DNA of 59,250 bases from positions 1 through 59,250 of the IMG/VR virus record IMGVR_UViG_3300010885_034940. The stretch is one strand, 5' to 3'. This document shows positions 14,306 through 22,775 of this stretch, piece by piece; the stretch's first letter is position 1; the number at the start of each line of letters is the position of its first letter. The stretch comes from a virus. The notes beneath the pieces are model-generated. The model did no database searches. It saw only the letters and a list, made by a program, of their open reading frames with translations, and had not been told where the DNA came from. The translations under genes and the position numbers were made by a program.

Positions 14306-14492
14306 GAATGAGCGTCTTAGCACATATCGTAATAAGATCAACGGTATAATCTATTACACCACATCAAAGTATAATCCGGTGTTTCACGACGGCGAAGAAT
14401 TTCTGGCTGTATTTCAAAAGCCAACAAACCCATATGAGCGTAGAGTCAACTATATTGCTCGCGCTGCACTTGAAAAAGTCCAGATTGCGTAA
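14268..14492 (+). CDS. small hypothetical protein
   Basis: A 74-aa protein starting MKLTIGKDIILDKNERL, with upstream in-frame ATGs at 14247 and 14256. It overlaps the preceding gene by 38 nt. Its TAA stop is the first three bases of the conserved promoter box at 14490. Function unknown. Confidence 0.5.
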   Translation: MKLTIGKDIILDKNERLSTYRNKINGIIYYTTSKYNPVFHDGEEFLAVFQKPTNPYERRVNYIARAALEKVQIA

Positions 14493-14548
14493 GTTATTGA
14501 TTTCATTAAAATTTTCAATATTGCCTTTTTCGTGTATTCGGGCATAAT
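14490..14548 (+). promoter_or_regulatory. boxed promoter 1 (A/T box + TTGCCT-N16-CATAAT)
   Basis: A divergent copy of the AAGTTATTGATTTTATTAGA box (14491-14514) is followed by TTGCCT (14521-14526), a 16-nt spacer and CATAAT (14543-14548). The ATG of the SWIM gene is at 14555, exactly 7 nt after the -10, so the mRNA is predicted to be leaderless. Confidence 0.65.
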
Positions 14549-14554
14549 GATACT

Positions 14555-14977
14555 ATGATGAGCAATTTTAATAATATGCAAATCCCAGTAGCTGGATCCG
14601 TCGTTCGCGTCACGACTAAGCATCGCAATGTGATGCTCAGCGACCCGGATCTGTATATGTACAACACGTATGAGGGCACTGTCGTTCCGAGCGAACGATG
14701 GGTTGCTCCCAACACATTCAGCATGAGTGGAGACTCTAAGATCGCGATTCGCGTCATAGATCCATCTTTCGTGCATAAGATTGAAGTCCTTAGCGGCAAA
14801 CTAGCCAAGGCAGCTGTAGCTTCTGGCGTGCGTATATTCCGCGTCAAGTCAGATAAGAACACATATACCGTCACAATTCAGGCGAATAGATATAAGTGTA
14901 CATGCGTTGGTTTTCAATTCCATCGCTACTGTCGCCACACTAAAGCTGTGGCTGCTAAACTTGGAGCAAAGAAATGA
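14555..14977 (+). CDS. SWIM zinc-finger protein
   Basis: The 140-aa protein ends with a SWIM-type zinc finger, CTC...YCRH (CxCxnCxH), preceded by the typical beta strands YTVTIQANRYKC. SWIM domains bind DNA or protein. The N-terminal 100 residues are beta-rich and unassigned. The gene is G+C-rich compared with its neighbours and is driven by a boxed promoter; the ATGATG start has no ribosome site. It overlaps the next gene by 4 nt. Confidence 0.75.
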   Translation: MMSNFNNMQIPVAGSVVRVTTKHRNVMLSDPDLYMYNTYEGTVVPSERWVAPNTFSMSGDSKIAIRVIDPSFVHKIEVLSGKLAKAAVASGVRIFRVKSDKNTYTVTIQANRYKCTCVGFQFHRYCRHTKAVAAKLGAKK

Positions 14978-15598: not shown

Positions 15599-15682
15599 GC
15601 GAGTGTGGTGGAATTGGTATACACATCAGACTTAAAATCTGCCGCCTATGGCATGTGGGTTCGAGTCCCACCACTCGCACCA
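15599..15682 (+). tRNA. tRNA-Leu (anticodon UAA)
   Basis: The acceptor GCGAGTG pairs with CACTCGC, the anticodon loop is CTTAAAA, there is a long class II variable arm, a T-arm GTGGG-TTCGAGT-CCCAC, and CCA is encoded. It reads UUA, and UUG by wobble. Confidence 0.95.
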
Positions 15683-15711
15683 GTTTCTGGGCGCATAGCT
15701 CATTATTTTCT

Positions 15712-15978
15712 ATGAATAAAGAACAAGAACTATTAGTTGTTTTGACAGAAGAATGCGGTGAAGTCATTCAAGCTTCTTCTAAGATTCTTAGGTTTGGATT
15801 GAACTCTAAGAATCCTTATAGCAATAAGAACAACAAAGAACAGCTAGAACAAGAGCTCGGCGATCTTATGTGTCTTATTAGAGCCCTAACAGAGAACGGT
15901 ACTATAGATCTTGATAGTGTCTTAGCTGCAGCTGAGAAAAAGAGAAAAAAGCTTGAAAAATACCTTAAAAATCAATAA
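15712..15978 (+). CDS. MazG-like nucleotide pyrophosphohydrolase
   Basis: The 88-aa protein has the MazG-type motif EECGEVIQASSK (ExxxE) and the second acidic motif QELGDLMCLI (ExxD), the metal ligands of all-alpha NTP pyrophosphatases. Phage MazG-like enzymes may adjust dNTP pools or (p)ppGpp. The ATG at 15712 is chosen; the upstream in-frame ATG at 15655 lies inside the tRNA gene. Confidence 0.75.
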   Translation: MNKEQELLVVLTEECGEVIQASSKILRFGLNSKNPYSNKNNKEQLEQELGDLMCLIRALTENGTIDLDSVLAAAEKKRKKLEKYLKNQ

Positions 15979-15984
15979 GTTGCG

Positions 15985-16043
15985 TAAGTTATTGATTCTA
16001 TTAGAGTTTTTGCTATTGTCTTTTTTGAGCGTTCAGGCATAAT
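15985..16043 (+). promoter_or_regulatory. boxed promoter 2 (A/T box + TTGTCT-N16-CATAAT)
   Basis: The box AAGTTATTGATTCTATTAGA (from 15986) precedes TTGTCT (16016-16021), a 16-nt spacer and CATAAT (16038-16043). ATGATG begins at 16050, 7 nt after the -10, opening the leader ORF at 16050-16076. Confidence 0.7.
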
Positions 16044-16049
16044 GATACT

Positions 16050-16076
16050 ATGATGAATGAACGAGGTAATGTCTGA
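16050..16076 (+). CDS. leaderless 8-codon leader ORF (MMNERGNV)
   Basis: An ATG at the predicted transcription start opens 8 codons ending in TGA at 16074-16076, which overlaps the ATG of the AAA+ gene (TGATG). A GAGG inside it lies 11 nt before that ATG. Termination there could couple translation to the AAA+ gene. The same layout occurs at 22166. Confidence 0.4.
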   Translation: MMNERGNV

Positions 16077-16924
16077 TGCCGCGTGGTGTACCCAAGGCTG
16101 GTTTTCGTAAGACGCGCAAGAGCAAGGCTTCTGTGCAGAACGTGCGCGTCGTGCGCCAGGTAGTCTCTAATGAGACTGATGCGCAGATCCGCGCCAAGCT
16201 TGACGAGCGTTTCAGTGCGCTTGAACTCATGACCGAGTGTGCCGTGAACGGCGACGCTAAGGCAGTTGTGATCTCTGGTCCTGCTGGTCTTGGCAAGTCC
16301 TTCGGCGTCACTAAGGTACTGGATGAACGCCAGCCGTTTCACACGGTCGTTCGTGGATACGTCCGCGCCACTGGCTTGTACAAGACTCTGTATGAATATC
16401 GTGCTCCCGGTTCCGTTGTTGTGTTCGACGACGCCGACAGCATCTTCGCTGACGACGTTTCGCTGAATCTGCTCAAGGCAGCGTGCGATACCACTAAGCG
16501 CCGCGTCTTGTCTTGGCTCACCGAGTCTAAGATGGAAGATGAAGAAGGCGAGCGTCTGCCGCGATCCTTCGAGTTCGAGGGAACTGTGATCTTCATCACC
16601 AACTATGACTTCGACCAGCTGATCGAACGTGGTAGTCGTCTCGCGCCGCACTTCCAGGCGCTGATCTCCCGGTCGATGTATCTCGACATGGCGATGAAGA
16701 CGAACCGCGATTACATGATCCGAATCAAGCAGGTTGTCGAGCAGGGTATGCTTGAAGAACACAAGCTTGGTAAGAGCAACGAAAACGCGATCGTTGCCTT
16801 TATCGAAAAGAATCAGGATCGGATGCGCGAGCTGTCGCTGCGTATGGTCGTGAAGATCGCTGCGCTGGTTAAGTCCCACCCGACTAAGTGGGAATCGCTG
16901 GCTCGAATCGTTTGCTGTAAGTAA
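16076..16924 (+). CDS. AAA+ family ATPase
   Basis: The 282-aa protein has Walker A GPAGLGKS (residues 68-75), Walker B VVVFDDADS (about 114-122), and a sensor-1-like VIFITNYDFDQL. The first 25 residues are strongly basic (RKTRKSK), suggesting DNA contact. AAA+ proteins remodel DNA or protein complexes; the partner is unknown. The coding sequence is much richer in G+C than the surrounding DNA and uses C/G-ending codons. It lies behind a boxed promoter and a leader ORF, so early expression is likely. Confidence 0.8.
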   Translation: MPRGVPKAGFRKTRKSKASVQNVRVVRQVVSNETDAQIRAKLDERFSALELMTECAVNGDAKAVVISGPAGLGKSFGVTKVLDERQPFHTVVRGYVRATGLYKTLYEYRAPGSVVVFDDADSIFADDVSLNLLKAACDTTKRRVLSWLTESKMEDEEGERLPRSFEFEGTVIFITNYDFDQLIERGSRLAPHFQALISRSMYLDMAMKTNRDYMIRIKQVVEQGMLEEHKLGKSNENAIVAFIEKNQDRMRELSLRMVVKIAALVKSHPTKWESLARIVCCK

Positions 16925-16939
16925 TAAGAGGAAAAGGTA

Positions 16940-17278
16940 ATGCGTAAGATTATTGCAACAATGGTGTGTCTTGCTACGGCAGTCACAGCAAGAGCGGAAG
17001 ATGGTCCAGGACTTTGGAACTGCGAAGGACCAAAGGTTCCCTCAAACGAATTCAAGTTTACTCTTGTTGCTAACAAGACAAACTATATGATGTTTGACAA
17101 TCTTGGACAGTTTGTACAGGAAGGCACGTTTGAAGTAAAAGAGGCGAACGGTATTCTGTATGGTCTGACTATGATTCGTGGCAAGTTTGCTCTTGCTGTT
17201 TCACGAAAAGACGATAAGACAATGCTCGCGAGTATTGCTTTCTCTGATGATCTTGTTGTTGATTATATTTGCAAGTAA
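16940..17278 (+). CDS. small exported protein
   Basis: The 112-aa protein begins with a signal peptide (MRKIIATMVCLATAVTARA, cleavage before EDGP). The mature part is beta-rich, with two Cys (WNCEG and DYICK) at its ends that could form a disulphide. It looks like a periplasmic protein. It follows the AAA+ gene after 15 nt with ribosome site AGAGGAAAAGG. Confidence 0.65.
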   Translation: MRKIIATMVCLATAVTARAEDGPGLWNCEGPKVPSNEFKFTLVANKTNYMMFDNLGQFVQEGTFEVKEANGILYGLTMIRGKFALAVSRKDDKTMLASIAFSDDLVVDYICK

Positions 17279-17292
17279 GAAGGAATTGATGC

Positions 17293-17529
17293 ATGAAAAT
17301 TTTGCAACAGGCTGTAGAAAATTTCTTTTCTGAAGTAAAGAGTGATAAGATTCCGAAGTGCTTCAATAGCGTAAAGGAATACGATACTTGGATTGCGCAC
17401 GAACACATCGCTCATACTGAGCCGCGTCAGTTTCCCTGCCGAGACTGTACTAAGGAATACCAGAGTAGGATGGTCGCCGAGGCGCGTTGCTACATACCCA
17501 TGGTTCGCGTCGAGCGTATTACTAAGTAA
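17293..17529 (+). CDS. small Cys-rich hypothetical protein
   Basis: A 78-aa protein with a possible zinc knuckle (CRDCTKEYQSRM followed by ARC) and an amphipathic N-terminus. No family named. It is last in the unit begun by boxed promoter 2. Confidence 0.6.
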   Translation: MKILQQAVENFFSEVKSDKIPKCFNSVKEYDTWIAHEHIAHTEPRQFPCRDCTKEYQSRMVAEARCYIPMVRVERITK

Positions 17530-17665
17530 CTGGCTCTGCTGTGGCTGCGGATTAGGCACAGTGCAGGGAGCCCTCTGAGCGTCTTTTACAGCGTACAAGG
17601 GTCAGGGTAGCGGGTCAGGGTAGGGACGCCCAGAAGCGTCCCTGGGACGTCCTGGGAGGCTCTGC
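17530..17665 (+). other. G+C-rich intergenic region with repeats and hairpins
   Basis: This 136-nt stretch has no convincing gene. It holds a tandem repeat GGGTCAGGGTAG (17599-17610 and 17612-17623), a strong hairpin GGGACGC/GCGTCCC (17623-17642), the palindrome GGACGTCC just after it, and a direct repeat GGCTCTGCT near both ends. No T-run follows the hairpin, so it is not a standard terminator. A small RNA or a protein-binding region is possible. Confidence 0.5.
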
Positions 17666-17761
17666 TAAGTTATTGATTTTATTAGAGTTTTTAGTGTATA
17701 CGCAAGTTATTGATTTTATTAGAGTTTTTTCTATTGCGTTTTTCTTGGTTTCAGGCATTAT
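17666..17761 (+). promoter_or_regulatory. boxed promoter 3 with two boxes (TTGCGT-N16-CATTAT)
   Basis: Two near-perfect copies of AAGTTATTGATTTTATTAGA start at 17667 and 17704. They are followed by TTGCGT (17734-17739), a 16-nt spacer and CATTAT (17756-17761). The ATG at 17768 is 7 nt after the -10, so a leaderless mRNA is predicted. Confidence 0.68.
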
Positions 17762-17767
17762 ATACTT

Positions 17768-17974
17768 ATGAAAACGAAAACTGATATGAACAAGCAACTT
17801 CATTGGATTAAGACCAAGGTGGACAAGAACGGCAATCGGCTGATTCTTTGGCACACGGGCAACTATGAATACCAGATCGACGTCGCGAACGGTGATTCGT
17901 TCTCGACGGCTCTCAAGATCGACGGCGACTGCGAAGAAGCCATCGCTCTCTTGGAATCTCTGGCAGTTCTGTAA
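17768..17974 (+). CDS. small hypothetical protein, leaderless
   Basis: A 68-aa soluble protein (KTKVDKNGNRLILWHTGNYE), with an acidic end. Third codon positions are G/C-rich. There is no ribosome site; the start codon coincides with the predicted transcription start of boxed promoter 3. Function unknown, probably early. Confidence 0.6.
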   Translation: MKTKTDMNKQLHWIKTKVDKNGNRLILWHTGNYEYQIDVANGDSFSTALKIDGDCEEAIALLESLAVL

Positions 17975-18008
17975 GGCACGGTTGCCACTCTGTTTGAGGT
18001 GTATTGAA

Positions 18009-18176
18009 ATGAATATGGTAGAATATCCGCATGTGTTCAGGATTTGGAAACAAACCACTTCCAGCGTCGGTCGTTCGCGTTATGTGAACTGTGTCAGCAA
18101 AGCTGCATATGACAAACTTGCGCGTGAGTATAAGTCGCTGAAAACGGAACTGGATTTGCTGAAGAGGAAGCAATAA
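18009..18176 (+). CDS. small hypothetical protein
   Basis: A 55-aa basic protein (VEYPHVFRIWKQTTSSVGRS) with a short C-terminal coiled-coil-like segment (YKSLKTELDLLKRKQ). Its TAA overlaps the next ATG (TAATG). Function unknown. Confidence 0.55.
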   Translation: MNMVEYPHVFRIWKQTTSSVGRSRYVNCVSKAAYDKLAREYKSLKTELDLLKRKQ

Positions 18177-18370
18177 TGAACGATCGAGTTGAGTCTCAAT
18201 TGACGTGGGTCTCGCAGCGCCTGTCTAGCACAGGTTATTTCTTGGGTCTGGAGATTGATTCCAAGAGCGTAAAGGCAACTGATCTTTATATGGTCGCTGC
18301 CGAGCTGGAAGACTTTGTTGCAAGCTTGCTGATGGCAGCGAGCCAGCTTGAAGAAAGCAAGGTAAACTGA
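18176..18370 (+). CDS. small hypothetical protein
   Basis: A 64-aa helical protein with an acidic second half (VAAELEDFVASLLMAASQLE). It is translationally coupled to the previous gene. No family recognised. Confidence 0.55.
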   Translation: MNDRVESQLTWVSQRLSSTGYFLGLEIDSKSVKATDLYMVAAELEDFVASLLMAASQLEESKVN

Positions 18371-18371
18371 G

Positions 18372-18497
18372 ATGGAAGAAATGAAGGAGACGCTCAATCT
18401 TATGAGTTGGGAAACTGAGGTTCAGATTCTGATGTCGATCATTGGGTTCTGCTTGGGATTCTTGATAGGGATATATATAATGGCATACCTTGAGTGA
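18372..18497 (+). CDS. 41-aa single-pass membrane peptide
   Basis: The peptide begins MEEMKETLNLMSWETEVQIL and has one hydrophobic span, SIIGFCLGFLIGIYIMAYL. It starts 1 nt after the preceding stop, behind AAGG. A small inner-membrane protein with an acidic cytoplasmic N-terminus is predicted. Confidence 0.5.
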   Translation: MEEMKETLNLMSWETEVQILMSIIGFCLGFLIGIYIMAYLE

Positions 18498-18588
18498 TTC
18501 GCCACTCCCATGATTATGGTAGGGACAATATTCTAAGTCCCCGAGCTGCAAATAAACCCATCCGCAGCGAAAAGAGCGAAACTTTGAA

Positions 18589-18665
18589 CGGACATTAGCT
18601 CAGCCTGGTAGAGCATCTGCTTTGGGAGCAGAGGGTCGTAGGTTCGAATCCTACATGTCCGACCA
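18589..18665 (+). tRNA. tRNA-Pro (anticodon UGG)
   Basis: CGGACAT pairs with ATGTCCG, the anticodon loop is TTTGGGA, the T-arm is GTAGG-TTCGAAT-CCTAC, and CCA is encoded. First of the main tRNA cluster. Confidence 0.95.
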
Positions 18666-18673
18666 GTATGTGA

Positions 18674-18748
18674 GGGGGATTAGTGCTAATGGGAACACGC
18701 TGCGTTTGCATCGCAGAGTTGAGAGTTCGATTCTCTCATCCTCCACCA
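18674..18748 (+). tRNA. tRNA-Ala (anticodon UGC)
   Basis: GGGGGAT pairs with ATCCTCC with one G-U. The anticodon arm is CTGCG-TTTGCAT-CGCAG and CCA is encoded. The D-arm is weak (about 3 bp). Confidence 0.88.
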
Positions 18749-18756
18749 CGTCGCAA

Positions 18757-18840
18757 GCCTCGGTGGCGTAATGGCAGCCGCGCTGGATTTAGGTTCCAGT
18801 GGAGTAATCCGTGTCAGTTCGAATCTGACCCGAGGCACCA
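18757..18840 (+). tRNA. tRNA-Leu (anticodon UAG)
   Basis: The acceptor is GCCTCGG/CCGAGGC and the anticodon arm CTGGA-TTTAGGT-TCCAG. It has a class II variable arm and an encoded CCA. It reads CUA. Confidence 0.94.
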
Positions 18841-18883
18841 TTTTGGAGCGTTCGTCTAGGTGCGAATGCTTCCTCACCCACCA
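18841..18883 (+). pseudogene. truncated tRNA-Glu relic
   Basis: The 18-mer TTTTGGAGCGTTCGTCTA is identical to the start of the intact tRNA-Glu at 18960-18977, including its spacer. The rest is lost and it ends in CCCACCA. The remaining 39 nt cannot fold as a tRNA. It is a deletion remnant of a duplicated tRNA-Glu. Confidence 0.6.
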
Positions 18884-18885
18884 GA

Positions 18886-18959
18886 GCCTTGTTAGTTTAA
18901 TGGTAGAACTCTGCTTTTACACGGCAGCTACGGCAGTTCGATTCTGTCACAAGGCACCA
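18886..18959 (+). tRNA. tRNA-Val (anticodon UAC)
   Basis: GCCTTGT pairs with ACAAGGC. The anticodon arm is CTGCT-TTTACAC-GGCAG and CCA is encoded. Confidence 0.92.
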
Positions 18960-18963
18960 TTTT

Positions 18964-19038
18964 GGAGCGTTCGTCTATCGGCTAGGACACCACCCTTTCA
19001 CGGTGGGAAGAGGGGTTCGATTCCCCTACGCTCTGCCA
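18964..19038 (+). tRNA. tRNA-Glu (anticodon UUC)
   Basis: GGAGCGT pairs with ACGCTCT. The anticodon arm is CCACC-CTTTCAC-GGTGG, the discriminator is G, and CCA is encoded. Confidence 0.94.
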
Positions 19039-19042
19039 GTTT

Positions 19043-19116
19043 TGAGGGATCGTCTAATGGTAGGACGACGGACTTTGAATCCGTCTATCTAGGTTCGAAT
19101 CCTAGTCCCTCAGCCA
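19043..19116 (+). tRNA. tRNA-Gln (anticodon UUG)
   Basis: TGAGGGA pairs with TCCCTCA. The anticodon arm is ACGGA-CTTTGAA-TCCGT, the discriminator is G, and CCA is encoded. Confidence 0.94.
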
Positions 19117-19154
19117 CGCTATATATTTTGCTGTTAACATCTTAGGAGATTCTT

Positions 19155-19292
19155 ATGAATAAATATGAATGCGAAGTTTGTAAGCATATCCATGACGAAG
19201 AAGTACATGGTAAATTTGAAGATTTGCCAAAGTATGCAAACTGCCCAAAATGTGGCAGCGATGCGCGTGAAGTTTACAAAGAAATAGTATAA
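19155..19292 (+). CDS. rubredoxin-like small protein
   Basis: The 45-aa protein has YECEVCKHIHDEE, then FEDLPKYANCPKCGSD. The two CxxC knuckles and the FEDLP segment between them are the features of rubredoxin, whose four Cys hold one iron. It could also be a structural zinc ribbon. The ribosome site TAGGAG precedes the ATG. It sits inside the tRNA cluster. Confidence 0.7.
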   Translation: MNKYECEVCKHIHDEEVHGKFEDLPKYANCPKCGSDAREVYKEIV

Positions 19293-19300
19293 ATTGAAAT

Positions 19301-19388
19301 GGAAGTGTGGGAGAGTGGTTTAATCCGTCGGTCTTGAAAGCTGAAGAGTGTAAAAGCTCCGTGAGTTCAAATCTCACCACTTCCGCCA
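19301..19388 (+). tRNA. tRNA-Ser (anticodon UGA)
   Basis: GGAAGTG pairs with CACTTCC, the anticodon loop is CTTGAAA, there is a class II variable arm, the discriminator is G, and CCA is encoded. It reads UCA. Confidence 0.94.
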
Positions 19389-19393
19389 AATTT

Positions 19394-19470
19394 GGGACAG
19401 TAGCTCAGTTGGTTAGAGCAAACGGTTGATAACCGTTAGGTCGAAGGTTCAAGTCCTTCCTGTCCCACCA
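19394..19470 (+). tRNA. tRNA-Ile (anticodon GAU)
   Basis: GGGACAG pairs with CTGTCCC. The anticodon arm is AACGG-TTGATAA-CCGTT and CCA is encoded. It is the only tRNA in the window without U at the wobble position. Confidence 0.95.
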
Positions 19471-19477
19471 TTTTCAT

Positions 19478-19506
19478 TTTACTTTTTAATTGTAGTAATA
19501 TATAAT
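19478..19506 (+). promoter_or_regulatory. promoter TTTACT-N17-TATAAT within the tRNA cluster
   Basis: TTTACT (19478-19483) and TATAAT (19501-19506) are 17 nt apart, immediately before the UAU tRNA. It would drive the downstream tRNAs separately from the upstream ones. Confidence 0.6.
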
Positions 19507-19514
19507 TATATAAT

Positions 19515-19608
19515 GCTCCTGTAGTTTAACGGTAAAACACCTGTCTTATACACAGGCTTGGCGCCAGATTAGCGCATGATATAGGTTCGAGTCCTATCGG
19601 GAGCACCA
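19515..19608 (+). tRNA. tRNA with UAU anticodon and long variable arm (Ile by codon)
   Basis: GCTCCTG pairs with CGGGAGC, the D-arm is GTTT/AAAC, the anticodon arm is CCTGT-CTTATAC-ACAGG and the T-arm ATAGG-TTCGAGT-CCTAT, with CCA encoded. The anticodon UAU reads AUA. Between anticodon and T stems lie 24 nt containing GCGC/GCGC, a class II-like variable arm that is not expected for tRNA-Ile. The amino acid it carries cannot be settled from sequence alone. Confidence 0.8.
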
Positions 19609-19614
19609 GATTTT

Positions 19615-19688
19615 GCGGAGTTGTCATAGTGGTTGTGATCTAGCCTTCCAAGTTAGCTACATGGGTTCGATTCCCATACTCCGCTCCA
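19615..19688 (+). tRNA. tRNA-Gly (anticodon UCC)
   Basis: GCGGAGT pairs with ACTCCGC. The anticodon arm is CTAGC-CTTCCAA-GTTAG, the discriminator is U, and CCA is encoded. Confidence 0.93.
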
Positions 19689-19692
19689 ATTT

Positions 19693-19769
19693 GTCCCCAT
19701 AGCTCAGTTGGATAGAGCAACAGCCTTCTAAGCTGTGGGTCAGAGGTTCGAATCCTCTTGGGGGCGCCA
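19693..19769 (+). tRNA. tRNA-Arg (anticodon UCU)
   Basis: GTCCCCA pairs with TGGGGGC, the anticodon loop is CTTCTAA, and CCA is encoded. It reads AGA, a codon rare in G+C-rich hosts. Confidence 0.93.
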
Positions 19770-19782
19770 ATAAGGTTATTCA

Positions 19783-20232
19783 ATGAAGATTGAAGACAAA
19801 GATTTGATTCGTCATCACTCCATTGAATATCCAATGGAGCTTGGTGCTCCAAAGTTTGAACCAATTCAGATTCAAGAGAAAAAGGATCTGATGATTAATG
19901 TTGCAAGATCAGCTGCAAGAAAAGAGTATGATCGTATAATGGAATTGGTTCATGTACTACAGAAACAAGCAAACGAGTTAATGAGAAGAATGGAAATTAC
20001 AGAAATCATTCATCAAGCTGAGCATAAATTTGCTCCGATTGTTGGTAAGACCTATTGGCTTATTAACAACAAAATGACTAATAAATATGAACTTGTTAAG
20101 TCAGGACCAAATGATTGGAGTGCAGGGCATCCCGATCATTATGAATACTTCGCAGAAGTGCGCTGTCTTGGCGATCAGACTTGGGAAGAAGTTAGCCCGT
20201 ATAGCACAGCTGGTAGTGCACCTGATTTGTAA
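19783..20232 (+). CDS. DUF2452-like protein whose 3' end overlaps tRNA-Thr
   Basis: The 149-aa protein contains FAPIVGKTYWLI, then GPNDWSAGHPDHYEYFAEVR and LGDQTWEE. I recognise this pattern as the uncharacterised DUF2452 family. The first 75 residues are helical. Its stop lies inside the tRNA-Thr gene, so the last 12 residues are encoded by tRNA sequence (38-nt overlap). Function unknown. Confidence 0.7.
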   Translation: MKIEDKDLIRHHSIEYPMELGAPKFEPIQIQEKKDLMINVARSAARKEYDRIMELVHVLQKQANELMRRMEITEIIHQAEHKFAPIVGKTYWLINNKMTNKYELVKSGPNDWSAGHPDHYEYFAEVRCLGDQTWEEVSPYSTAGSAPDL

Positions 20233-20270
20233 TCAGGGGGTCGGGAGTTCGAATCTCTCTGCGGGCACCA
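20195..20270 (+). tRNA. tRNA-Thr (anticodon UGU)
   Basis: GCCCGTA pairs with TGCGGGC with one G-U. The anticodon arm is CCTGA-TTTGTAA-TCAGG and CCA is encoded. The 5' half lies inside the preceding coding gene. Confidence 0.94.
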
Positions 20271-20285
20271 TTTTGGAAAGGTGAC

Positions 20286-20423
20286 ATGGCAACAAAAAAT
20301 GACATAACTGGCGATTCAATTGCATCAAAGCACAAGAACCAGAAACTCTATGAGAAGAACTGGGACAAGATTTTTGGTAAGAAGCTAAATAGGGAAGTGA
20401 AACCCAAGAAGCAAAAGAAATGA
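20286..20423 (+). CDS. small conserved phage protein
   Basis: The 45-aa protein begins MATKNDITGDSIASKHKNQK and continues YEKNWDKIFGKK. This pattern (TGD-x-I-x-SK ... Y-x-x-N-x-DxIFGKK) is widespread in tailed phages without known function. It overlaps the next gene by ATGA. Confidence 0.75.
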   Translation: MATKNDITGDSIASKHKNQKLYEKNWDKIFGKKLNREVKPKKQKK

Positions 20424-20728
20424 AAAAGTTAATATTCTTGACTCTACTTTTGTTCACGCTACCAGCACAAGCTGCATTATACACACTAAACTGGACTGCG
20501 CCAACTGAATACGAAAACGGATATCCGTTGGATTATGGCGATATCTCTTATTACAAGATTTACTACAAGACCAGAATTTCATCAAATTATAAGCTGCTAT
20601 CAAGAACAACTAATAATCAAAACACATTTTTGTTTAATCTGCCAAAAGGACAAAGATACTATTTTGTTGTTACGGCAGTTGATTTGTTCGGGTTCGAATC
20701 GCAATACAGTAATCAAGTTATTAGATAA
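20420..20728 (+). CDS. exported fibronectin type III-like protein A
   Basis: The 102-aa protein has a signal peptide (MKKLIFLTLLLFTLPAQA) and then a single FnIII-like domain: LNWTAPTEYENG, YYKIYYKT, YYFVVTAVDLFGFES. It is predicted to be periplasmic or surface-exposed, with a carbohydrate or protein binding role inferred. A paralogue follows after 10 nt. Confidence 0.72.
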   Translation: MKKLIFLTLLLFTLPAQAALYTLNWTAPTEYENGYPLDYGDISYYKIYYKTRISSNYKLLSRTTNNQNTFLFNLPKGQRYYFVVTAVDLFGFESQYSNQVIR

Positions 20729-20738
20729 GGGGAAATAA

Positions 20739-21107
20739 ATGAAGAAGTTATTAATCGCTGCAGCTCTGCTTTTGGTTTCATTCTCAGCAATGAGCCAAAC
20801 AGCACCAAATATCACATTGTCTTGGACAGCACCAACTCTTTATGAAGATGGTACACCAATCCTAGCTGGTGATATTATTGGTTATAAGATCTATTATGGA
20901 ACAACAGCTGGCGGACCATATCCTACAGTAATCTCAGTTCCTGCTGGTATTCTAAATGCTAACATCAGTACACAGACACTTGCTCGCGGAACATATTATT
21001 TCGTAGCAACAACGCTAACTGCTAATGGACTAGAATCAGTATATAGTGGTGAAGTCTCTAAGGTAGTTGCTCCAGCATCCAAGCCAAAGCCACCAGTGTT
21101 GAAGTAA
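20739..21107 (+). CDS. exported fibronectin type III-like protein B
   Basis: The 122-aa protein has a signal peptide (MKKLLIAAALLLVSFSAMS) and an FnIII-like domain with LSWTAPTLYEDG, IGYKIYYGT and YYFVATTLTANGLES. It is clearly a diverged tandem duplicate of the preceding gene. The Pro/Lys-rich tail is extra. Confidence 0.72.
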   Translation: MKKLLIAAALLLVSFSAMSQTAPNITLSWTAPTLYEDGTPILAGDIIGYKIYYGTTAGGPYPTVISVPAGILNANISTQTLARGTYYFVATTLTANGLESVYSGEVSKVVAPASKPKPPVLK

Positions 21108-21123
21108 TTTATACATAACCCAG

Positions 21124-21147
21124 CCTCTCCAGTTTAGGCTGGAGAGG
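21124..21147 (+). promoter_or_regulatory. 9-bp perfect hairpin before the HNH gene
   Basis: CCTCTCCAG and CTGGAGAGG flank the 6-nt loop TTTAGG. No T-run follows, so it is not a standard terminator. The HNH ribosome site AGGTG lies 4 nt downstream, so the hairpin may affect mRNA stability or translation. Confidence 0.5.
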
Positions 21148-21159
21148 TTCAGGTGATAT

Positions 21160-21729
21160 ATGTCATATGTTTTGATCACAGATAGTGCTGGTACTCCGCG
21201 TGAGTGGGCGGATCTTGAATCAGCTTGTTGTTATTACGCGAAGAAAAAGGTGCTGTGGGAAATTGGTTCTCCAATGAAGGAATTCGTTGGTGGAATCAAT
21301 AACAGGGGCGAGCAATCAAGAATAGTTATTAGTTCAATTCTTGGCGTCACTGGTCCTATATTCTCCAAAACTTTTAAGGAGAAAGAAACACAAACACCCG
21401 AGCGTGTCATTCTGTACGCTCGCGACCAGCATGTTTGTGCCTACTGTGGTGATGTGTTCAACTTTCGAGAATTGACAATTGATCACATCATTGCAAAGTC
21501 TCGTGGTGGGAAACACAACTGGATGAATACTGTTACAGCATGTAAATCATGTAACCAACGTAAGGGCGATCGTACGCCTGAAGAAGCAAAGATGCATTTG
21601 CTTTATGTGCCATATGTTCCTACTAGGTTTGAAAAGATCTTTTTAGCCAATAAGAAGATTCTAGCAGACCAGATGGAATTCCTGATGGCAAAAATACCAA
21701 AAACGTCTCGAGTCTGGAATAGGTCATAA
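21160..21729 (+). CDS. HNH endonuclease
   Basis: The 189-aa protein has a complete HNH domain: CAYCGDVF, then ELTIDHIIAKSRGGKHNWMNTV, then ACKSCNQRKGDRTPEEA. Two CxxC pairs hold structural zinc and the central His is catalytic. It resembles the McrA/HNH group seen as free-standing phage nucleases. Homing or genome processing roles are both possible. Confidence 0.85.
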   Translation: MSYVLITDSAGTPREWADLESACCYYAKKKVLWEIGSPMKEFVGGINNRGEQSRIVISSILGVTGPIFSKTFKEKETQTPERVILYARDQHVCAYCGDVFNFRELTIDHIIAKSRGGKHNWMNTVTACKSCNQRKGDRTPEEAKMHLLYVPYVPTRFEKIFLANKKILADQMEFLMAKIPKTSRVWNRS

Positions 21730-21742
21730 AGGGATAATTGTT

Positions 21743-22066
21743 ATGTCATTTGGAATATTTGTTCTTGTTATATTAGCAGTTTATGTTTACGTCAGAATCA
21801 AGTACCCTGATCATTTTTCTGGTTCTGACAATGGCTATGAATATCGTTCTTCTGAAAACGATTATGAGTCCAAACAAGAAGAAAGCGAACATTATGAATT
21901 GCTGCAAATGTATAAAGGTAAGCATTACTGGTATGGGATCGGAACATACAGCAGCGAGTCTTCTGCGGAACAGGCAGGTATTTGGGTCGCTGAGCGTCAC
22001 CCAGAGCACCGATATAAAGTCGTAAGAGTCCGTGGAGATAGGAAATCCGCCGTCTGGTTGTCCTAA
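21743..22066 (+). CDS. N-terminally membrane-anchored small protein
   Basis: The 107-aa protein has one N-terminal membrane segment (FGIFVLVILAVYVYVRI), an acidic Ser/Tyr-rich linker and a C-terminal YWYGIGTYSSESSAEQAG domain of unknown type. Its TAA is the start of a boxed promoter. Confidence 0.6.
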   Translation: MSFGIFVLVILAVYVYVRIKYPDHFSGSDNGYEYRSSENDYESKQEESEHYELLQMYKGKHYWYGIGTYSSESSAEQAGIWVAERHPEHRYKVVRVRGDRKSAVWLS

Positions 22067-22159
22067 GTTATTGATTTTATTAGAGTTTTCACCTTCCTCC
22101 TAAGTTATTGATTTTATTAGAGTTTTTTCTATTGCCTTTTCATACAGTTTAAGTATAAT
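22064..22159 (+). promoter_or_regulatory. boxed promoter 4 with two boxes (TTGCCT-N16-TATAAT)
   Basis: Two exact copies of AAGTTATTGATTTTATTAGA start at 22065 and 22102. They precede TTGCCT (22132-22137), a 16-nt spacer and TATAAT (22154-22159). ATGATG begins at 22166, 7 nt after the -10. Confidence 0.72.
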
Positions 22160-22165
22160 GATACT

Positions 22166-22192
22166 ATGATGAATGAGGAGAGATATTCGTGA
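22166..22192 (+). CDS. leaderless 8-codon leader ORF (MMNEERYS)
   Basis: An ATG at the predicted transcription start opens 8 codons ending in TGA at 22190-22192, overlapping the GTG start of the next gene (GTGA). GAGGAG lies within it. The layout and first residues (MMNE) match the leader ORF at 16050. Confidence 0.4.
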   Translation: MMNEERYS

Positions 22193-22407
22193 GTAATTTG
22201 GGCGGTCATTGGAATATGGAAGGTATGCGCGTCTGGGGGATCTACCTTGACAAATTCAGTGTCATGGGCATGGTTGAGTTGTCTCGCGTTACCTATGGTG
22301 GTGAGGTTCAGCACCACGTCGCGCTGCTCGCACCGATCGAGGTGTATGGTGCCGTGCGTGATCGCGTTATCCTGAATCATGATAAAATTCTGCAGGTTTG
22401 GAGCTGA
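22189..22407 (+). CDS. small hypothetical protein, GTG start
   Basis: The 72-aa protein (MSNLGGHWNMEGMRVWGIYL) uses GTG, overlapping the stop of the leader ORF. It is G+C-rich compared with later genes. Beta-rich by eye; no family recognised. Confidence 0.6.
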   Translation: MSNLGGHWNMEGMRVWGIYLDKFSVMGMVELSRVTYGGEVQHHVALLAPIEVYGAVRDRVILNHDKILQVWS

Positions 22408-22409
22408 TC

Positions 22410-22676
22410 ATGTCGTATAATGGTTGGTCGAATTACGAGACTTGGCGCGTCTATCTCGAGTGCGTCGATGGTATGACGTTGGACGATTTGGTGCTGTTCA
22501 ACGATGGCCAAGCTAGGATTCAGGATATCCTCGAGAATATGTGCGACGAAATAATTCTCGAGGATCTTCAGGGAATCGCTCTTGATCTTGCTCGCTCATT
22601 TCTTTCTAAAGTTAACTGGCGAGAGATCGCTGATCATATGATCAATGAAGAATTCTCCGAAGAGGAAGAATGTTAA
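22410..22676 (+). CDS. small conserved phage protein (NGWSNYETW type)
   Basis: The 88-aa acidic protein starts MSYNGWSNYETWRVYLE. The NGWxNYETW motif is common in small proteins of phages and plasmids with no established function. The ATG at 22410 is preferred to 22398 because the motif then lies at the very N-terminus as usual. Confidence 0.7.
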   Translation: MSYNGWSNYETWRVYLECVDGMTLDDLVLFNDGQARIQDILENMCDEIILEDLQGIALDLARSFLSKVNWREIADHMINEEFSEEEEC

Positions 22677-22700
22677 TTGCTTACAAGCAATTGACTATAT

Positions 22701-22775
22701 GGGATCGTAGCTCAGTGGTAGAGCAGTTGGCTTTTAACCAATTGGTCCAGGGTTCGAATCCCTGCGGTCCCACCA
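22701..22775 (+). tRNA. tRNA-Lys (anticodon UUU)
   Basis: GGGATCG pairs with CGGTCCC with G-U/wobble positions. The anticodon arm holds loop CTTTTAA, the T-arm is CAGGG-TTCGAAT-CCCTG, and CCA is encoded. Confidence 0.94.

Follow-up and report, generated by a model that had tools for sequence, protein, structure and literature searches.

In E. coli, 5'-uAUGs (AUG within 2 nt of the 5' end, opening a short uORF, with a Shine-Dalgarno sequence (SD) in the leader and a separate main start) bind 70S ribosomes, and their effect on the downstream gene ranges from strong (ptrB, which has a 26-nt 5' UTR) to none (rhaB) (Beck, Fleming and Janssen 2016, PMC4965119). The leaders described here have the same layout. 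The closest in shape is rhaB, whose 8-aa uORF and ATGA overlap match them in length and overlap (PMC4965119). The E. coli mRNAs, however, come from scattered unrelated genes and have measured 5' ends, whereas ours belong to a repeated phage cassette with predicted 5' ends only.

In mycobacteria, coupled leaderless small ORFs with their TGA on the next RTG (RTGA) are over-represented (Shell et al. 2015, PMC4633059). They share with our loci a leaderless small ORF whose stop overlaps the next start, but they are actinobacterial host genes documented by RNA-seq and ribosome profiling, while the present ones are read from sequence in phages and use TGATG and TAATG besides GTGA. The -10-adjacent leaderless genes of Deinococcus-Thermus (PMC12340547) likewise have a -10 fixed a few bases before the start codon of a leaderless mRNA. 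Those are main genes of one bacterial phylum, unlike a phage cassette with a -35, an upstream block and mini-ORF versions. Restart at stop-start overlaps in E. coli is mostly SD-dependent, and such gene pairs resemble our sites in an ATGA/TGATG overlap with an SD supporting restart; their upstream partners, however, are full genes, not an 8-codon ORF at the 5' end (PMC6728339). The leaderless lambda cI mRNA (a control in PMC4965119) is also a phage mRNA starting with AUG, but it represents a single gene, whereas several promoters per genome are concerned here, across a phage group. The parts of the cassette are already known, and a remark in one phage paper that phage transcripts are "often leaderless" (PMC5312081) limits any claim of novelty. 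The literature searched contained no phage promoter cassette with a 5'-terminal AUG as its commonest form together with leaderless, in-frame and coupled versions.

Results

Two leader ORFs at predicted transcription starts

The window, that is, the whole stretch of DNA analysed, is a 59.25-kb virus record from a T4-like myovirus with baseplate genes, a primase and a phrog_1250 AAA+ gene. It has no close named phage, the best baseplate matches being below 40% identity. Fourteen tRNA genes lie at 15599-22775, a stretch overlapping a local rise in G+C (0.42-0.53 at 16-20 kb versus about 0.33 in the structural-gene half of the window). Within 19478-19515, the end of a promoter TTTACT-17-TATAAT lies 8 nt ahead of tRNA-Ile(tat) at 19515, and a transcript from it would have roughly the same 5' end as the tRNA.

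The features of the first leader site, before the AAA+ gene, are as follows.

15986..16010, + strand, conserved upstream promoter block AAGTTATTGATTCTATTAGAGTTTT, 5 nt upstream of the -35; same block in viral contigs
16016..16043, + strand, sigma-70-type promoter TTGTCT-16-CATAAT of the AAA+ gene (sequence; -35 at 16016-16021, -10 at 16038-16043)
16050..16076, + strand, 8-codon ORF MMNERGNV from the predicted +1, stop on the AAA+ start (TGATG) (sequence; same design in relatives)
16063..16067, + strand, GAGGT, SD-like, within the leader, 8 nt before the AAA+ ATG (sequence)
16076..16924, + strand, AAA+ ATPase gene of T4-like phages (phrog_1250), main gene of the first cassette

Six bases (GATACT) separate the -10 CATAAT from ATGATG, the A of ATG being the seventh base after the -10. 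The frame reads ATG ATG AAT GAA CGA GGT AAT GTC TGA (16050-16076), and base 16076 is common to the leader stop and the AAA+ ATG (16076-16078), which gives TGATG at 16074-16078. The -10, spacing, frame and overlap given for this gene in the initial annotation are exact to the base, and the second site that it placed at 22166 (MMNEERYS, GTGA) is also correct in sequence:

22065..22089, + strand, extra upstream block copy, in tandem, 37 nt before the next (block search)
22102..22126, + strand, conserved upstream promoter block of the second leader cassette (block search)
22132..22159, + strand, promoter TTGCCT-16-TATAAT, -35 at 22132-22137
22166..22192, + strand, 8-codon ORF MMNEERYS from the predicted +1, stop on the GTG start (GTGA) (sequence)
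22176..22180, + strand, AGGAG, SD-like, within the leader, 8 nt before the GTG (sequence)
22189..22407, + strand, 72-aa gene, function unknown (GTG start; homologue comparison)

This ORF too opens 6 nt after the -10 hexamer, and its TGA (22190-22192) overlaps the GTG (22189-22191) in GTGA at 22189-22192. The GTG start is supported, since homologues keep an (H)WN- motif near the N-terminus. One homologue (L093) starts directly at the +1 ATG (MMNWNL), another (L129) lies behind a longer leader, and that of L282 has an apparently operon-internal position. A weak stem surrounds the 22189 GTG.

Both sites thus have a uAUG at the predicted 5' end with a separate SD (GAGGT, AGGAG) and main start, like the 5'-uAUG uORFs, and a leader stop overlapping the next start, like the coupled leaderless ORFs. 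Neither window leader is followed by a terminator-like hairpin. Both fold less well than shuffles (z +1.8 and +1.5), and a hidden SD that needs unfolding was rejected on this ground.

One cassette in four copies

A 25-base block, AAGTTATTGATTYTATTAGAGTTTT, stands 5 nt before the -35 at 14491, 15986, 17704 and 22102, and two further copies lie upstream of such blocks, at 17667 and 22065; six copies in the window compare with 0 in shuffles. Every main copy is followed by a -35 and, 16 bases on, by a -10, with six more bases before an ATG. The 21-mer ATAATGATACTATGATGAATG has two exact copies and one with 3 mismatches at 14544, versus 0 in 100 shuffles. Sites 16050 and 22166 share the block, the promoter and the first ten bases predicted to be transcribed; they differ only in the second half of the leader and in stop-start geometry (26 nt to the ATG of TGATG versus 23 nt to the GTG of GTGA). 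The two are therefore copies of one cassette, and the independent origin first ascribed to them was wrong and is rejected. Their matching starts, noted at the same time, are real and more general than was thought, recurring in four window copies and in many viral contigs. The remaining window copies are these:

14491..14548, + strand, third copy, block and promoter TTGCCT-16-CATAAT
14555..14977, + strand, 140-aa gene (SWIM zinc finger) starting at the +1 ATG with no SD, a leaderless main gene
17667..17761, + strand, fourth copy, tandem blocks (17667, 17704) and promoter TTGCGT-16-CATTAT
17768..17974, + strand, 68-aa gene starting at the +1 ATG; +1 start also in the L093 and L174 homologues

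At both 14555 and 17768 the +1 ATG opens the gene itself without an SD. Two promoters (17667-17728 and 22065-22126) have a pair of tandem block copies 37 nt apart, and the constant position of the block, 5-6 nt before the -35, points to a putative UP element or phage-regulator binding site.

ATG at the predicted +1 in related viral contigs

The exact block was found in 71 stretches of viral contigs, and a looser form also occurs in viral contigs among the matches listed. Named phages gave weak, marginal matches only, and the block pattern in five stretches of Gilliamella contigs is provisionally taken as chance. An unbiased sample of promoters, retrieved with either the block or the AAA+ protein and not chosen for an ATG, comprised 121 non-redundant promoters among the matches listed. 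ATG stood exactly at the predicted +1 (6 nt after the -10) in 61 of the 121 (p < 1e-30), against a mean of 3 and a maximum of 11 for other ATG offsets; ATA was the next commonest +1 triplet (23). Block, -35, -10 and +1 keep a fixed spacing across about 120 promoters, and the ATG and ATA versions share an A preceded by T at the predicted +1. Over the whole contigs of 11 records, ATAATNNTNNTATG gave 29 matches versus 6 for its one-base-shorter version.

Long ORFs begin at most of the 79 distinct +1-ATG promoters, and among 76 non-redundant ones 44 lack any separate SD start. The "SKSILAKLL" gene (about 750 aa) uses the +1 ATG as its start in ten contigs; in eight others it follows a leader and begins at almost the same residue. 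Several orthologues likewise have a +1 ATG start in some phages and an SD leader in others. Start codons at the predicted +1, and real genes (two in the window) that start there without an SD, are what leaderless promoters have, and the leaderless initiation proposed at the outset is well supported by this comparison. Initiation at the 5'-terminal AUG would then be a property of a group of uncultured T4-like phages with several such promoters per genome and AUG at the predicted first base of the mRNA.

Leadered promoters without the ATG (e.g. L226, L094, L096) often have a ATAGGTTGAGGA- or ATAAGGTGAGGA-like sequence, which makes TGA codon 3 of the +1 frame. In L057, L063, L088, L121, L136 and L219 one gene family has another leader (GGGAAATTGGTCCCCCC...AGGAAGGA and similar) in front of it. 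Since some variants of this leader are in phase, some are stopped and some lack ATG, its conservation seems to lie in the RNA and not in the peptide.

AAA+ orthologues with and without the leader

The coupled leader MMNNKVNI (TGATG) precedes the AAA+ orthologues of L056, L084, L236, L242, L250 and L252. In L104 it reads MMNSKVNF (TAATG), and the more divergent L292 has MMNKETN (TGATG) behind a different promoter. Coupling, kept in the L056 group, L104 and L292, is absent in L009-L016 and L267; these nine contigs keep the AAA+ gene, with a leader that lacks the +1 ATG and nearly always has a clear SD. The orthologous promoters without a leader ATG carry ATA, ATC or ATT at +1, and L053/L247 have ATAGTG in place of ATGATG in an otherwise similar cassette. 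Relatives with the leader broken and the main gene intact had been named beforehand as a refuting case, and L009-L016 and L267 are of this kind. Since the AAA+ gene occurs with and without it across relatives, the leader ORF is a recurring option, not a requirement.

Frame of the leader ORF

Automatic start calls contain some spurious internal GTG/TTG starts, and the comparison was made on hand-checked cases with a separate SD start at most 31 nt from +1, including L236, a manual addition in which the contig ends within the main gene. Of 17 non-redundant cases, 15 have a +1 ATG frame that either shares the phase of the SD start or ends on that start, versus 8 of 35 for the virtual +1 frame of promoters without a +1 ATG (p 1.2e-5; the sequences are partly related and the p-values are guides only). 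Stop-start overlap occurs in 6 of 8 out-of-phase +1-ATG leaders versus 0 of 27 promoters without ATG (p 1.7e-5), counts that overstate the independent events because the cassettes have common ancestry. The distances (21, 23 or 26 nt) are limited by SD-to-start spacing, which could alone favour some frames. The two exceptions nearly couple, the stop lying one base before the GTG in L097 and a few bases after the ATG in L096.

A block-independent scan for MMN[K/E]E cassettes gave more in-phase cases and one near-coupled case (L302, leader stop a few bases past the main start); it gave no MMN cassette with an internal SD that runs out of phase deep into the next gene. At L028:10077-10110 a +1 ATG opens the leader MNMKKTVTE, which ends in TAATG on a 95-aa ORF without a recognisable SD and, from its layout, appears a good candidate for strict reinitiation.

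Discussion

The anatomy of the cassette, its exact +1 spacing, the genes that start at +1 and the frame rule can be read directly from the DNA. The explanation that we favour, and think rather probable, is that a cassette with a 5'-terminal AUG, a mini-ORF and an internal SD gives ribosomes two entry routes to the main gene. Such a cassette (25-bp block, -35, -10, six bases, A+1) would have spread through the T4-like phage group and evolved AUG as the mRNA start. In one version the +1 AUG would open the gene itself (14555, 17768), in a second a short in-frame extension before an SD-led AUG, and in a third an 8-codon mini-ORF that holds the main-gene SD and stops on the main start codon. In this third version we infer the transcription start, 70S loading at the 5' AUG and reinitiation: a ribosome would load at the terminal AUG, read eight codons, terminate at TGATG or GTGA and restart on the adjacent start codon with the help of the internal SD, which would also permit direct entry. 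Ribosomes loading at the RNA end are thus probably handed straight to the next gene. The reinitiation originally put forward is one of two workable versions of this hand-over; in the other, the 5' AUG recruits the ribosome, which then passes to the internal SD start, as for ptrB in E. coli (PMC4965119). Feeding of the main gene from the 5' AUG appears likely from the frame rule, but the comparison does not bear out a dedicated device, as once envisaged, or a required one, the window copies not being independent, both leaders holding a usable SD and nine AAA+ relatives lacking the leader ATG.

The internal SDs could suffice for initiation of the main genes. The leader would then be an ordinary short SD leader, with ATGATGAAT kept as the initially transcribed part of a copied promoter, an incidental mini-ORF and SD-only main starts. 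Usable SDs do lie 8 nt upstream of both main starts, the AAA+ promoters with ATA, ATC or ATT at +1 have an SD as well, and many 5' UTRs in this family are about as long and lack ATG. We nevertheless regard it as unlikely, since it leaves unexplained both the frame rule (15/17 versus 8/35) and the many genes that start at a +1 ATG without an SD.

Harm avoidance is a real alternative that, like the reading with two entry routes, needs translation from the +1 AUG. The 5' AUG would be left over from the leaderless cassette and translated, and run-ins to the main gene out of phase would have been purged. The same cassettes act as leaderless starts elsewhere, and the frame rule fits, being what selection against out-of-frame interference instead of feeding would produce. 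In E. coli rhaB (8 codons, ATGA overlap), moreover, the 5'-uAUG can be removed without a change in expression (PMC4965119). Yet under harm avoidance an exact stop-start overlap is not favoured over an early stop, while 6 of 8 out-of-phase leaders overlap exactly, and we judge it quite improbable.

A short translated ORF right before a gene is the usual layout of attenuator and stalling systems, and a regulatory leader peptide sensing an amino acid or a drug would have this form. The residues, however, differ among leaders (MMNERGNV, MMNEERYS, MMNNKVNI, MMNSKVNF, MMNKETN), and no codon is repeated beyond the two initial ATGs. With no conserved peptide or regulatory codon run in these leaders, no terminator hairpin after either window leader and RNA folds weaker than those of shuffles, peptide sensing was rejected as highly improbable. 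That the transcript starts elsewhere, from another promoter or upstream of 16050, with the leader an internal mini-ORF, is hardly credible given the fixed spacing and the A after T at +1, although the 5' ends are predicted and promoter-like sequences are frequent in this AT-rich DNA (18 found in the window scan versus 15.7 expected).

Gene callers should be warned that starts are easily misplaced in these phage genomes. Leaderless phage mRNAs have usually been treated as single cases; here AUG stands at the predicted +1 in about half of the copies of one cassette, with three linkages to the gene. The same gene found leaderless, leader-coupled or SD-led forms a natural series in which the contribution of a 5'-terminal AUG to translation can be tested. 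More tentatively, the cassette of this phage group may serve as a standard 5'-AUG module for loading ribosomes. It could stand ahead of any gene, by leaderless, in-frame or stop-start joining, and would supply a second entry route, possibly working when normal initiation is limited.
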